Positions 52,499 to 61,632 of a DNA stretch of 62,727 nt are shown piece by piece (positions within the stretch are counted from its first letter, which is position 1; every line of letters begins with the position of its first letter). The stretch covers positions 1 through 62,727 of the forward strand of contig JAAYQN010000017.1 of NCBI GenBank assembly GCA_012519285.1. Direction: 5' to 3'. The DNA comes from Clostridiales bacterium. Lineage in GTDB: Bacteria > Bacillota > Clostridia > Christensenellales > HGM11417. A program made the position numbers and the translations under genes. The notes under the pieces are model-generated. The model did no database searches. It was given only the letters and a program-made list of their open reading frames with translations, and was not told the DNA's origin.

Positions 52499-52573
52499 GC
52501 CCTCATAGTCTAGGGGTCAGGACATCGCCCTCTCACGGCGAAGACAGGGGTTCGATTCCCCTTGAGGGTACCA
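52499..52573 (+). tRNA. tRNA-Glu(CTC)
   Basis: Acceptor GCCCTCA/TGAGGGT (G-U at 1:72), anticodon loop CTCTCAC, encoded CCA. Confidence 0.9.
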
Positions 52574-52576
52574 TTT

Positions 52577-52616
52577 AAACCATTGAATGGTTGAATAACC
52601 GTTCAATGGTTTTTGC
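52577..52616 (+). terminator. terminator of tRNA-Glu
   Basis: AACCATTGAATGGTT-GAAT-AACCGTTCAATGGTT followed by TTT. Confidence 0.8.
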
Positions 52617-53055: not shown

Positions 53056-53085
53056 TTGACAACGAAGACGCCTTTGTGGTAACAT
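53056..53085 (+). promoter_or_regulatory. promoter of ilv leader
   Basis: TTGACA (53056-53061), 18-nt spacer, TAACAT (53080-53085). Confidence 0.7.
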
Positions 53086-53111
53086 ATTAAAAAAAGAAAA
53101 ACGGTGCTTTA

Positions 53112-53219
53112 ATGAACGGCGCAATCGGCTTTTTGGCAATCGTACTACTTATTATAGTAAGCGTTATCGTGCTTAGCGGTAACGTAGTTGCGGTTTTGCC
53201 AAAAAAGTCGGTTGTATAG
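53112..53219 (+). CDS. putative Ile/Leu/Val-rich leader peptide (35 aa, absent from the ORF track)
   Basis: MNGAIGFLAIVLLIIVSVIVLSGNVVAVLPKKSVV*; 19 of 35 residues are I, L or V; lies between a promoter and an intrinsic terminator upstream of ilvB. Confidence 0.65.
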   Translation: MNGAIGFLAIVLLIIVSVIVLSGNVVAVLPKKSVV

Positions 53220-53249
53220 TGGCTTAAAGACAAGGGGATTATACAATCA

Positions 53250-53278
53250 GACCTACGGTAAAACCGTAGGTCTTTTTT
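53250..53278 (+). terminator. attenuator terminator upstream of ilvB
   Basis: GACCTACGG-TAAAA-CCGTAGGTC followed by T6. Confidence 0.85.
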
Positions 53279-53375
53279 AATAGGAGAGCATTGGAAAACG
53301 AGTGCTTTTTCCTCTGCTTATAAGCATAAGATATTGCAAAGTATGCCATAGAATATCATCAAAAGGAGCTTACCG

Positions 53376-55043
53376 ATGAAGTTAAGCGGAGCGGCAATTA
53401 TCATTCAGACCCTGATAGAGCAAGGGGTTGACACCGTCTTCGGCTATCCCGGGGGCGCGGTGCTCAACATCTACGATGAGCTTTACAAGGCTCAGGACAA
53501 GATAAGGCACTACATAACCTGCCACGAGCAGGGGGCCACGCACGCCGCCGACGGCTACGCGAGGGTGAGCGGCAAGTGCGGCGTTGTGATAGCCACGAGC
53601 GGCCCCGGAGCCACCAATTTGGTCACGGGAATAGCCAACGCATACCTCGATTCCACCCCCCTCGTCGCCATAACGGGCAACGTGGCGCTGTCGCTCATCG
53701 GCAGGGACAGCTTTCAGGAAGTGGACATAACGGGCATCACCATGCCCATAACCAAACACAACTACATGGTAAAAGACGTAAACAAGCTCGCCGACATCGT
53801 GAGGGAGGCGCTTGAGATCGCGGCCAGCGGCAGACCCGGCCCGGTGCTCATAGACGTTCCCAAGGATATCCAGCAAGCTCAGACGGAGTTTAAACCGGGT
53901 GAAAAGGTGATTCCCAAGAGACAGAGCAGGCTGCGCGGGGCAGATTTTGACAAGGTGGTCGAGACCATAGACAAATCCTCAAAGCCTTTCATTTACGTAG
54001 GCGGCGGGGCTGTGATAGCCGACGCCACGTCTGAGCTACAGGAATTTGCCGACCTCATCGACGCGACCGTCGGCAGCAGCATGATGGGCATAACCGCCAT
54101 GCCGGCGGGCCATCCCAAGTTCCTCGGCATGACGGGCATGCACGGCAAATACGCCTCATCCATGGCGATGGCAAAAAGCGACCTCATCATCGCAGTCGGC
54201 GCCCGCTTCTCCGACAGGGCGACGGGTAACAAGAAGGAGTTCTCCAACGGCAAAAAGATCATACATATCGACATCGACCCCGCCGAGATAAACAAAAACA
54301 TCCCCGTCTACGCCTCGCTGGTCGGCGACGTCAAGGAAATTCTGCGCAGGCTCATTTCCGCAGTGTCAAAGTGCGACAGGTCGGCATGGCACGATGAGAT
54401 AGACCAGATAAAGAGAAGCCCCGACAGCAGGCTGGAGATGGGCAAAGGCAGGCTCAACCCTCAGACAGTCATCGAAACCATAAGGAAATACACTTCCGAC
54501 GACGACGTCATCGTCACCGACGTCGGCCAGCACCAGATGTGGACATCTCAGTATTACAGCTTCAAAAAGCCCAGGACTTTTGTCACCTCGGGCGGCCTGG
54601 GGGCCATGGGTTTCGGCTTCGGCGCCGCCATGGGCTCCTGTATCGGAAGGGGCGGCAAAAAGACCGTCCTCATAACCAGTGACGGCAGCTTCCACATGAA
54701 CATGAACGAGCTCGCAACGGCGGTCACCTATAACCTTCCCATAATGGTAGTCATCTTAAACAACAGCGTGCTTGGCATGGTTCGCCAGTGGCAGACGCTT
54801 TTTTTCGGAAAGCGTTATTCTCAGACCACGCTGGACAGAAAGACCGACTACGTCAAGCTCGCCCAAGCGTTCGGCGCAAGGGGCATAAAGGTGGAAAAGA
54901 TAGAGGAGCTCGAGCCCGCCATCAGGCAGGCGTATGAGGCAGAAAGCCCCATCGTCATCGAGGCGGTCATTGACAGGGATGAAAAAGTTCTCCCGATGAT
55001 TCCCCCCGGCGGGACAATTAAGGATATAATAGTCAAGGCATAA
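53376..55043 (+). CDS. ilvB: acetolactate synthase large subunit
   Basis: GVDTVFGYPGGAVLNIYDEL, ThDP domains, neighbouring ilvN. Confidence 0.97.
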   Translation: MKLSGAAIIIQTLIEQGVDTVFGYPGGAVLNIYDELYKAQDKIRHYITCHEQGATHAADGYARVSGKCGVVIATSGPGATNLVTGIANAYLDSTPLVAITGNVALSLIGRDSFQEVDITGITMPITKHNYMVKDVNKLADIVREALEIAASGRPGPVLIDVPKDIQQAQTEFKPGEKVIPKRQSRLRGADFDKVVETIDKSSKPFIYVGGGAVIADATSELQEFADLIDATVGSSMMGITAMPAGHPKFLGMTGMHGKYASSMAMAKSDLIIAVGARFSDRATGNKKEFSNGKKIIHIDIDPAEINKNIPVYASLVGDVKEILRRLISAVSKCDRSAWHDEIDQIKRSPDSRLEMGKGRLNPQTVIETIRKYTSDDDVIVTDVGQHQMWTSQYYSFKKPRTFVTSGGLGAMGFGFGAAMGSCIGRGGKKTVLITSDGSFHMNMNELATAVTYNLPIMVVILNNSVLGMVRQWQTLFFGKRYSQTTLDRKTDYVKLAQAFGARGIKVEKIEELEPAIRQAYEAESPIVIEAVIDRDEKVLPMIPPGGTIKDIIVKA

Positions 55044-55057
55044 AAAGGAGCAAAAAG

Positions 55058-56642
<1,585 letters not shown>

Positions 56643-56855: not shown

Positions 56856-58511
56856 ATGAATTCTGAAAGCGTAAAAGCAGGGGCGGAGCGCGCGCCGCAC
56901 CGCTCCCTGATGAAGGCGGCGGGCCTTTCCGACAGGCAGATTGGCAGGCCACTCATCGGGATAGTAAACTCATTTAGCGAGATAGTGCCCGGTCACGCCC
57001 ACCTTCAGACAATTGCCAGGGCGGTGAAGGACGGCGTTCTCGCCGCCGGGGGCACGCCTCTGGAGTTCAACACAATTGCGGTATGCGACGGCATTGCCAT
57101 GGGGCATGAGGGCATGCGCTACTCTCTCTGCACGAGGGAGCTTATCGCCGACTGCGTGGAATGCATGGTGAGGGCTCACCGCTTCGACGGCTTGGTATTC
57201 ATCCCGAGCTGCGACAAGATAGTGCCGGGGATGCTGATGGCGGCGGTGAGGCTCAACCTCCCATCCATTTTCATTTGCGGCGGCCCCATGCTTTCGATAA
57301 GGGACCGTCAGGGAAGGTTTCTTGACCTCAACAGCGTGTTCGAGGCGGTGGGGGCTTTTAAGGCGGGCGCCATCGCCGAGGAGGAGCTGCGCGAGATAGA
57401 GGACAGCGCCTGCCCCACCTGCGGCTCCTGCTCGGGGATGTTCACCGCCAATTCCATGAACTGCCTAACCGAGGTAATCGGGCTGTCGCTGCCGGGCGCC
57501 GCCACCGTTCCCGCGGTGTACTCCAAGAGGATAAGGCTTGCCAAGCAGACGGGCGAGAGGATAGTGGAGCTTGTAAGGGAAGGGGTTACGGTAAGGCAGA
57601 TAGTTACCGAGCGCTCGGTCAAAAACGCCATAATCGCCGACATGGCGCTGGGCTGCTCCACCAACACCATTCTGCACCTTGACGCAATCTGCGACGAGGC
57701 GGGAATACATTTTGACCTTTCTATAGTGAACCAGATAAGCGAGAGCACCCCCAACATCTGCAAGCTCGCCCCCGCGGGAAGCCATCACGTGCAGGACTTC
57801 GACGCCGCGGGCGGAATACAGGCGCTCCTGAAGGAGCTGGGCGAGCTCATAGATACAGGCTGCCTCACCGTCTCGGGAACAGTGGCGCAGAACCTCGAAA
57901 AGGTAAAATACATTGGCAGAGAGGTCATAAGGTCTAAGGACGACCCCTATTCAAAGACGGGAGGCCTCGCCGTGCTGTACGGCAACCTCGCAGAGAGAGG
58001 TGCCGTAGTCAAGAGGAGCGCCGTCGCCCCCGACATGCTGCGCTTTACGGGTAAGGCGAGGGTGTTTGACGGCGAGGAGCAGGCGATTGAGGCCATCTAC
58101 GGAGGGAAGATACAAAAGGGCGACGTAGTGGTCATCCGCTACGAGGGTCCCGCAGGCGGCCCAGGCATGAGGGAGATGCTTTCCCCCACTTCCGCCATCG
58201 CCGGCATGGGGCTCGACGCCGACGTGGCGCTGATTACCGACGGCAGGTTTTCGGGCGCCACGAGGGGCGCTGCGATAGGCCACGTCTCCCCCGAGGCCGC
58301 GGACGACGGCCTAATCGCTTACGTCGAGGAAGGAGACCATATCGAGATAAACATTCCCGAATACAAGCTCAACCTCCTCGTAGACGAGGATACCATACAA
58401 AAGAGGAGGGGCGCCGGGAAAAAGCCCCCAGAAAGGGAGCTTACAGGGTACCTTGCCAGATACGCCAGGCTGGTCAGCTCGGCTGACAGCAGGACGGTGT
58501 TTAAGAAATAA
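56856..58511 (+). CDS. ilvD: dihydroxy-acid dehydratase
   Basis: [54 protein letters not shown]; start refined from 56724. Confidence 0.97.
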
Positions 58512-58528: not shown

Positions 58529-60037
58529 ATGAAAAGAATAAAGATTTTTGACACCACTTTACGGGACGGGGAGCAATCGCCGGGCTGCAGCATGCACCTT
58601 TCCGAAAAGCTGGAGATAGCCCGCGCGCTCGAGCGGATGAAGGTGGACATCGTAGAGGCGGGGTTTGCCATAGCATCGCCCGGCGATTTTGAGGCCGTAA
58701 AGGCAATCGCCGGCATACTCAAAGAGTGCACGGTGGCAAGCCTTGCGCGTGCCATCCATAAGGACATCGACGCCGCCTACGAAGCTGTTAAGGGCGCTGC
58801 GTTGCCCCGAATCCATACCTTTATCGCCACCTCGCCCGTACACATGCAGTATAAGCTCAAGATGAGCCCCGAGCAGGTGCTGGAGATGATAGAAGACGCC
58901 GTCTCCTACGCCAAAAAGTATTGCGGCGACGTGGAATTTTCCGCCGAGGACGCCATGAGGAGCGAGCCGGAGTTTTTGGCAAAGGCCGTCTACACCGCCA
59001 TAAAGGCGGGCGCCACGGTGGTGAACATACCCGACACGGTGGGATACAGCACCCCTTCCGAGATGGCCCAAATGATCTCTTACCTTAAAAACCACGTGGA
59101 GAACATCGACAAGGCTGAGATCTCCGTGCACTGCCACAACGACCTCGGCATGGCAGTGGCAAATTCGCTTGCCGCCATCACCGCAGGCGCAACTCAGGTG
59201 GAATGCACCGTAAACGGCCTGGGCGAGCGAGCGGGCAACGCCGCCCTCGAGGAAATAGTCATGGCGCTTCAGACCAGGAAAAACCTCTTCGGCGCCTACT
59301 GCAACGTGGACGCCACCAAGATTTACCAGACCAGCAGGCTTGTCTACAACATCCTCGGCCTGCAGCCGCCGCTCAACAAAGCGATAGTGGGCCAGAACGC
59401 TTTCGCGCACGAGGCGGGAATCCACCAGCACGGAGTGCTCGCGAATCGCGAGACCTACGAGATAATCACGCCTCAATCCATCGGCCTTCCCACCAGCCGC
59501 ATGGTGCTGGGCAAGCACAGCGGCCGCCATGCCGTGGAGAGCAGGCTTTCAGAGCTCGGCTACACCTTGAGCAAGGAAGAGCTCGGCCAGGTTTTCCAGA
59601 GCTTTAAAGAGCTCGCCGACAAGAAGAAGATGGTCACCGACAGGGATCTTGAGGCACTGCTAAAGCACAAGAAGGTGGAGGAGCAGGTGGAGGGCTTCAA
59701 GCTCGAGCGCTTTACCGTAAACAGCGGCAATTACGTAACCAGCAACGCCGTGGTCAGGCTGTCAAAGGGCGACAAGCTCTTTGAGGAAGTGGCAATAGGC
59801 GACGGTCCCATTGACGCCGCGTACAAGGCTATCGACAAGATAATAGATGGCAAGCCCAGGACGCTCGAAAACTACAGCATCCACTCCATAACCGAAGGCG
59901 AAGACGCGCTCGGCGAGGCGGTGGTAAAGGTAAAGAGCGGCGACGCTTACGCCACGGGAAGAGGCCTTTCCACAGACGTCATAGAGGCGAGCATTTTGGC
60001 GTACCTCAACGCTGTTAATAAACTGCTTCAGGACTGA
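58529..60037 (+). CDS. leuA: 2-isopropylmalate synthase
   Basis: FDTTLRDGEQSPGCSM, HCHNDLGMAVANSLA, C-terminal regulatory domain. Confidence 0.96.
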   Translation: MKRIKIFDTTLRDGEQSPGCSMHLSEKLEIARALERMKVDIVEAGFAIASPGDFEAVKAIAGILKECTVASLARAIHKDIDAAYEAVKGAALPRIHTFIATSPVHMQYKLKMSPEQVLEMIEDAVSYAKKYCGDVEFSAEDAMRSEPEFLAKAVYTAIKAGATVVNIPDTVGYSTPSEMAQMISYLKNHVENIDKAEISVHCHNDLGMAVANSLAAITAGATQVECTVNGLGERAGNAALEEIVMALQTRKNLFGAYCNVDATKIYQTSRLVYNILGLQPPLNKAIVGQNAFAHEAGIHQHGVLANRETYEIITPQSIGLPTSRMVLGKHSGRHAVESRLSELGYTLSKEELGQVFQSFKELADKKKMVTDRDLEALLKHKKVEEQVEGFKLERFTVNSGNYVTSNAVVRLSKGDKLFEEVAIGDGPIDAAYKAIDKIIDGKPRTLENYSIHSITEGEDALGEAVVKVKSGDAYATGRGLSTDVIEASILAYLNAVNKLLQD

Positions 60038-60042
60038 TACGT

Positions 60043-61632
60043 ATGGCAAACAGGATAGAGATACTGGACAGCACCCTAAGGGACGGAGCCCAGAGCGAGG
60101 GCATATCCTTTTCGGTGCAGGACAAAATCAATATAATAAAGGCGCTCGACGAGTTCGGCGTGCACTACATAGAGGCGGGCAACCCCGGCTCCAACCCCAA
60201 GGACATTGAGTTCTTCGAGCGGGCAAAGAAGATGGAGCTAAAAAGCGCTCTGCTGTGCGCTTTCGGCAGCACCCACAGGAAAAACAAGAGGGTGGACGAG
60301 GACGAGAACGTTCTCTCGCTGCTTTCCGCCGGCACCAAGGCGGTGTCCATCTTCGGAAAGAGCTGGGACCTGCACGTCACCCAGATTTTGAAGGCGACGC
60401 TGGAACAAAACCTCGGCCTCGTCCACAACACCGTAAAGTTCTTCAAGGATAACGGCAGGGAAGTGATCTTCGACGCCGAGCATTTTTTCGACGGCTACAA
60501 GGCAAACCCCGAATACGCAATGAAAGTCCTAAAAAGCGCCGCCGATGCCGGCGCAGACGTGCTTTGCCTTTGCGACACAAACGGGGGGTGCCTTTCCGAC
60601 GAGATTTTCAGGATAACAAAAAATGTAGTAGACGCTTTCGGGGGCATGAGGATAGGCATCCACTGCCACAACGACACAGGCTGCGCCGTGGCAAGCTCTA
60701 TCCTCGCGGTAGAGGCAGGCGCCTTCCACGTGCAGGGCACCTTTACGGGAATTGGCGAGCGCTGCGGCAACACCGACCTGAGCGTGCTTATACCAAACCT
60801 CCAGCTCAAAAAGGGCTACAGCTGCGTACCTGAAAGCTCCATGGAGCACCTCACCGCCACGGTGTTCAAGATTTTCGAAATCTCGAACGCAATAGCTCCC
60901 AACAACAAGCCCTATTCGGGAGACAGCGCTTTCGCTCACAAGGGAGGAATGCACATAGACGGCGTGATAAAGTGCCCCGTCTCCTTCGAGCACGTCGACC
61001 CCTCCAAGGTGGGCAACAAGAGAAGGTTCCTCATGAGTGAGGTTTCGGGCAGGACAACGGTTCTCGCAAAGATAAAGAGCATCGCGCCCGAGTTCGACAA
61101 GGATTCCCCCGAGATAGCCGAGATAGTCAAAAGGCTTAAGCAGCTTGAGCACGAGGGATACCAGTTCGAGTCCGCCGACGCCAGCTTCGAGCTGATGGTA
61201 CTGGAGGTGCTGGGCAGGTTCAAGCCGCATTTTAACCTGCACATGTACAGGACGAGCGGCGAGTATCCCTTGCCCGACGGCGAGATGAGCGCATCCGCCA
61301 TGTTAAAGATACAAGTGGATGGCAGGAATGAGATCACCGCGGCGGTGGGCAACGGCCCCGTGCACGCGCTCGACCTCGCGCTGAGGAAGGCGCTGTGCGT
61401 GTTCTACCCCGAGCTCAAGAAAGTGCACCTTACCGACTATAAGGTGCGCGTGCTTTCGGGCCAGGATGCCACGGCGGCAAAGGTCAGGGTGCTAATTGAG
61501 AGCACCGACGGCAAGGATATCTGGACCACGGTGGGCGTCTCCACCGACATAATTCAGGCGAGCTGGAAGGCGCTCGTCGATTCCATTGAATACATTCTCT
61601 TTAAAAAGGCAGGAAAGAAAATATGGCGATGA
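60043..61632 (+). CDS. cimA: (R)-citramalate synthase
   Basis: [47 protein letters not shown]. Confidence 0.93.

Follow-up and report, generated by a model that had tools for sequence, protein, structure and literature searches.

Organization of the ilvB upstream region

The window analyzed here is a 62,727-nt contig of a Clostridiales bacterium whose genome is assembled at 1.3 Mb in 94 contigs and is 86% complete. The ilv-leu genes at the end of the window (Table 1) had been identified in the original prediction as ilvBNCD-leuA-cimA-leuC; ilvB, ilvN, ilvC, ilvD, leuA and cimA are all borne out by NCBIfam matches, and leuC is assigned by position and reading only. Under the NCBIfam assignments, the products of this operon are the very amino acids specified by the control codons of the leader described below. 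Farther upstream, a tRNA gene is followed by a 16-bp stem and a T-run (52577-52612), the two together spanning positions 52499-52612 of the window, and a long AT-rich stretch that contains no long open reading frame (ORF) separates them from the ilv promoter.

Table 1. Features of the ilvB leader and the downstream operon in the window
Feature	Position	Strand	Basis
Sigma-70-type promoter, TTGACA-18-TAACAT (-35, 53056-53061; 18-nt spacer; -10, 53080-53085), TG before -10	53056-53085	+	direct reading
Weak Shine-Dalgarno-like GGTG, 5 nt 5' of the sORF start	53103-53106	+	direct reading
Leader peptide sORF, MNGAIGFLAIVLLIIVSVIVLSGNVVAVLPKKSVV, 35 codons, ATG...TAG	53112-53219	+	direct reading
Region 1, codons 4-9; pairs with region 2 (53197-53215) in the anti-antiterminator 1:2	53121-53138	+	pairing; cognate above noncognate
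Control codons, run IVLLIIVSVIVL, codons 10-21	53139-53174	+	sequence; predicted antitermination stall positions
Control-codon hairpin P0, 10 bp, 53161-53170 with 53176-53185	53161-53185	+	conserved with compensatory changes
Region 2; 53189-53200 pairs with region 3 (antiterminator), 53197-53215 with region 1	53189-53215	+	
Intrinsic terminator, regions 3 and 4, 11 bp (53249-53259 with 53263-53273), loop AAA, then U6	53249-53278	+	
ilvB, acetolactate synthase large subunit	53376-55043	+	NCBIfam TIGR00118
ilvN, acetolactate synthase small subunit	55058-55606	+	TIGR00119
ilvC, ketol-acid reductoisomerase	55638-56642	+	TIGR00465
ilvD, dihydroxy-acid dehydratase, start inferred	56856-58511	+	TIGR00110
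leuA, 2-isopropylmalate synthase	58529-60037	+	TIGR00973
cimA, citramalate synthase	60043-61632	+	TIGR00977
leuC, 5' part, frame cut by the contig end	61624-62727	+	position and inspection only

The promoter and the leader peptide proposed originally are both readily recognizable, the former with an additional TG before the -10 hexamer and the latter identical to the peptide that had been quoted. After the initiator Met, 19 of the 34 residues are Ile, Leu or Val (5, 5 and 9, respectively), and this is the single sORF in the whole window, among those of 12 to 60 codons on both strands, with at least nine such residues in 12 consecutive positions. Among related leaders, a TTGACA-type promoter with a score of at least 10 (of 12.5) is detected within the 100 nt upstream of the leader start in 21 of 36 cases, compared to 2.7% of base-shuffled controls, and in many relatives the Shine-Dalgarno sequence is of the AGGAG type, that is, stronger than GGTG. 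The previously noted difference in Leu and Val codon usage between the sORF and the neighboring genes holds as well: codons ending in G or C make up 3 of the 14 Leu and Val codons of the sORF and 297 of 410 for the operon genes (Fisher p 1.5e-4). Codon rarity as a signal was rejected, given that the Leu and Val codons are unusual and the Ile codons of the sORF are ordinary; the helices within the sORF RNA may equally account for its codon choice.

The leader RNA folds more stably than dinucleotide shuffles (z -5.2), and the structures initially reported in it are present, with adjusted boundaries. The terminator and its U6 tract are real, with a stem of 11 rather than 9 bp (53249-53273); the early hairpin, placed at 53161-53169/53177-53185, is real as well and one base pair longer; and the competing pairing, given as 13 bp, comprises 12 bp between 53189-53200 and 53257-53268 (-18 kcal/mol), the 13th pair being G-U. 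The early hairpin, P0, is a separate conserved element over the control codons and not the anti-antiterminator. The latter is helix 1:2, an element of the classical design that is absent from the original description.

Conservation of the leader peptide and of its helices

For comparative analysis, IlvB relatives were drawn from whole genomes and GTDB contigs; the nearest kin lie outside the comparison because the contig of the same-family genome (G001) ends inside ilvB. An sORF dense in Ile, Leu and Val that is followed by a terminator within 100 nt is present in 46 of the 105 ilvB upstream regions and in none of 2100 dinucleotide shuffles. The nearest leaders share a common core such as IISVIVLL.....VLP, and Ile, Leu and Val interchange freely among the leaders while helices 1:2, P0 and 2:3 persist. 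The comparison of relatives that had been proposed as a check thus bears out the original prediction with respect to the sORF and to the competing helices alike.

The pairing partners were compared within and between 16 to 19 related leaders, with leaders, registers and anchors picked by eye. The mean duplex energies of cognate and noncognate arms are, respectively, -22.3 and -16.4 kcal/mol for the antiterminator 2:3, -22.0 and -15.7 for helix 1:2, and -15.7 and -10.3 for P0 (19 leaders), with 0 of 20000 permutations in each case; in a fixed register, the 9-bp antiterminator core is paired in 108 of 117 cells, which is matched by 1 of 100000 permutations, all these counts being guides rather than probabilities because related sequences are not independent. 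More telling are the compensatory changes, which lie on separate branches. Single positions of the core vary in pair type, for example, GC/AT/GU and GC/CG/AT/TA, as can be seen by comparing the window (GGUUUUGCC with GGUAAAACC) to L031 (UGUACUGCC with GGCAGUACA), L042 (CUGUUUGCC with GGCAAACAG) and L041 (AGUUUUACC with GGUAAAACU). In L038, a close sister of L031, the antiterminator is largely lost (5 of 9 pairs remain), and the sORF, helix 1:2 and the terminator are retained. These register-based and duplex tests took the place of a covariance model, which was not used because the MAFFT alignment is off by a few columns at P0 and at region 3; RNAalifold applied to this alignment recovers the terminator and a 3-bp stub only, probably due to the same misplacement.

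The RNA fold exceeds what the encoded peptides demand. When the codons for each amino acid were redrawn from the pool of all leaders, none of 400 recoded versions of the window sORF had a folding energy as low as the native one (z -4.4); the mean z was -3.2 for 19 leaders and -3.0 for the automatically detected set, in which 41 of 46 leaders were below -1. Under the same control, the duplex between region 2 and the terminator reached a mean z of -1.3 to -1.5 (-4.1 for the window) and, by this measure, is weaker evidence.

A putative ribosome-mediated attenuator

The original interpretation of the leader as a ribosome-mediated attenuator is strongly supported in silico by the sORF, the conservation of the helices, the compensatory pairing and the occlusion model, and we consider it very likely that this is a classical transcription attenuator, like those of trp, his and ilv, that controls ilvB-N-C-D-leuA-cimA-leuC. 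A run of end-product codons is followed by an intrinsic terminator located between the sORF and ilvB; helix 2:3, which shows compensatory change, excludes the terminator, and region 1 of helix 1:2 lies just 5' of the control codons. The release of region 2 by a stalled ribosome and its masking once translation is completed come from the model.

This model employs a partition function in which the ribosome footprint extends up to 11 nt past the A site and the RNA is exposed as far as 53268. With the A site at any of codons 5-23, a range that includes the control codons (10-21), the antiterminator prevails. The terminator dominates in the absence of a ribosome, at codons 1-3 and from codon 24 on, and at codon 4 the two structures are balanced. 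When the whole terminator is exposed, the equilibrium is mixed at many stall positions; at several of them the finished terminator competes well, so that the model works only if folding is timed to transcription. Classical attenuators, too, depend on the order in which their helices form.

Under the mechanism that we infer from this anatomy, its conservation and the compensatory pairing, transcription would start near 53092, and a ribosome following the RNA polymerase would translate the Ile/Leu/Val-rich leader peptide. With ample charged tRNA, the ribosome would proceed beyond codon 25 and mask region 2, so that the terminator would form and transcription would stop. Under a shortage of Ile, Leu or Val, a stall within codons 10-21 would leave region 1 unwound and region 2 free, and the latter would pair with 53257-53268 and block the terminator. 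If no ribosome is present, region 1 would pair with region 2, and the terminator would form; both the lack of translation and fast translation are expected to result in termination because region 1 pairs with region 2.

Other readings of the same features were weighed against this one. One of them is that the sORF encodes a functional small membrane protein or a peptide resembling type I toxins, with the terminator merely ending the transcript; the hydrophobic character of the peptide, its polar, basic tail and the strong folding of the RNA speak for this. However, dozens of genomes have the sORF directly 5' of ilvB, the host genome has it once, Ile, Leu and Val exchange freely among the leaders while the helices persist, and region 2, within the sORF, pairs specifically with its own terminator; on the strength of this synteny and RNA pairing, the reading was rejected, and we regard it as very improbable. 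Slightly less probable still is a decaying or constitutive terminator that does not respond to amino acids, with regulation left to a repressor. The function of the leader is predicted from sequence, and L038 demonstrates that the pairing can be lost, but every helix of the window leader is intact and above the synonymous controls, and no match to PF06018 (CodY) was detected in the 86%-complete host genome.

A translation-independent aptamer riboswitch or T-box-like element governing the terminator would be in keeping with the T-boxes that precede ilvB in other clostridial relatives and occur elsewhere in the host genome. At the leader site, however, there is no match to the T-box motif AGGGUGGNACCGCG or to RF00230, in agreement with the original statement that a T-box signature is absent, and no Rfam family, including the Leu, His, Thr, Phe and Trp leaders, reaches the threshold in the window leader. 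The conserved feature is the in-frame run of control codons, and the leader-bearing and T-box-bearing ilvB genes belong to different parts of the IlvB tree; such an element thus appears just as improbable as the decaying terminator. T-box, other riboswitch and CodY control at this site were dropped, with no motif or Rfam match and no CodY gene found in the 86%-complete genome.

Elsewhere, the host genome carries three T-boxes, one of which scores below the cut-off. Those on contigs C83 and C87 (L110, L111) lie, by inspection, near frames resembling DAHP synthase and the phenylalanyl-tRNA synthetase alpha subunit; therefore, the host possesses both T-boxes and a leader-peptide attenuator. In Oligosphaera ethanolica, the leader (L033, 2320-2460) yields a full-length, sub-threshold match to the Rfam His_leader (36.7 bits against a gathering score of 49, E 1.2e-4), although its codons are those for Ile, Leu and Val; this likeness fits shared architecture rather than homology.

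Evolution of the leader and relationship to known attenuators

In a tree of 107 IlvB sequences, built from IlvB alone by a quick method with SH-aLRT support only, the window belongs to a clade of 47 (support 99), 41 of which are preceded by a leader of the same kind; over the whole tree, 54 leaders were counted, 46 detected automatically and 8 added by eye. Among the leaderless members of the clade, two with identical sequences (L004, L090) come from contigs cut inside ilvB, two (L040, L049) have a leuA-like frame directly 5' of ilvB, and in two (L059, L060) the leader is simply missing. Ten sequences from Lentisphaerota or Verrucomicrobiota, including the isolate O. ethanolica, are nested within the clade (support 99), and so are five that are from Spirochaetota or unnamed (support 99). 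Joint transfer of the operon and the attenuator would be the simplest reading of these sequence relationships.

The ilvB genes preceded by T-boxes fall outside the 47-member clade, and the leader and T-box labels require only 3 changes on the tree; the alternation of the two before ilvB is a natural exchange of the sensor on the same gene. T-boxes (RF00230) precede ilvB in the clostridial relatives L007-L010, L014, L098, L103, L105, L107 and L109. Among thirty further members of the class with closer-scoring IlvB, leaders are present in only a minority, and therefore this mode of control is patchy in the class.

Several variants of the arrangement were observed. Three loci of the Lentisphaerota type (L036, L037, L043) contain two tandem attenuators, located approximately 415-250 and 203-48 nt upstream of ilvB, each with its own Ile/Leu/Val-rich sORF and terminator; a promoter-like site precedes the first of the two. 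Another type of leader, with the core NNLLLINLLGVRII...FCCIQ, precedes ilvB in L051, L057 and L064, and leaders with the core IISVLLLGLIIVRVI.HV are found in Spirochaetota and Clostridia (L048, L054, L055, L061-L063, L069, L071).

Ribosome-mediated attenuation of branched-chain amino acid (BCAA) genes is classical in enterobacteria. The attenuators of ilvGMEDA, ilvBN, leuABCD, his and trp resemble the window leader in the peptide rich in the end product, the mutually exclusive helices 1:2, 2:3 and 3:4, and the U-tract terminator; the window leader differs in that it matches no Rfam leader family at threshold, includes the extra conserved hairpin P0 and has an antiterminator that reaches from the last part of the terminator's 5' arm across the loop into the first part of its 3' arm. 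The leader peptides of Escherichia coli ilvG and ilvB consist of 32 amino acids with 15 and 11 BCAAs, respectively, and such attenuation has been proposed to be common in Gram-positive bacteria (PMC6123439). The ilvB-II motif of Corynebacterium, tested with a lacZ reporter for C. glutamicum ilvBNC (PMC10272879), similarly combines a BCAA-rich upstream ORF before ilvB with a terminator and an antiterminator, but is limited to Corynebacterium, with a shorter ORF (15-17 amino acids) and a different reported structure. The ilvB-OMG motif, from several phyla, and the Leptospira ilvB motif also precede ilvB, with predicted BCAA-rich upstream ORFs (PMC10272879); E-value searches of Rfam with the window leader and two relatives give no match to ilvB-OMG, a result that bears on kinship only if the searched set includes this family. 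Genetic evidence exists for ribosome-mediated BCAA attenuators in Bacillota, namely, Rli60 of Listeria (PMC5864092) and the ilvD attenuator of Staphylococcus aureus (PMC5794164); unlike the window leader, these are located before ilvD and are subject to CodY control as well, and the Listeria leader peptide has 13 amino acids.

T-boxes also act by a terminator switch. Like the window leader, RF00230 elements precede ilvB, in clostridial relatives; they sense tRNA directly and have no match at the window site.

The mechanism is already known, and the added interest lies in a family that reaches the threshold of no Rfam model and goes with this operon in three or more phyla. In the literature we searched, which left many subscription papers outside, no description of this leader family in Clostridia, Lentisphaerota or Spirochaetota was found; a 2010 survey by Lopatovskaya and colleagues (Mol Biol 44:128) may already include such leaders. 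On balance, we favor the view that these leaders make up a hitherto undescribed family of attenuators, marked by an additional conserved hairpin over the control codons, and that this family moved between Bacillota, Lentisphaerota and Spirochaetota together with the ilv-leu operon, gave rise by duplication to the tandem switches of some Lentisphaerota, and replaced or was replaced by T-boxes among Clostridia.

The present analysis adds a well-supported BCAA attenuator for uncultured Clostridia, and the leader set is useful for studying the exchange between T-boxes and leader peptides. The isolate O. ethanolica DSM 24202 carries a clear member of the family (L033) and hence provides a directly testable case. 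Leader-peptide attenuation of ilvB appears to be a frequent mode of control in this part of the IlvB tree; the operon, as it was inherited across phyla, seems to have kept a switch that depends on translation and requires its coupling to transcription.
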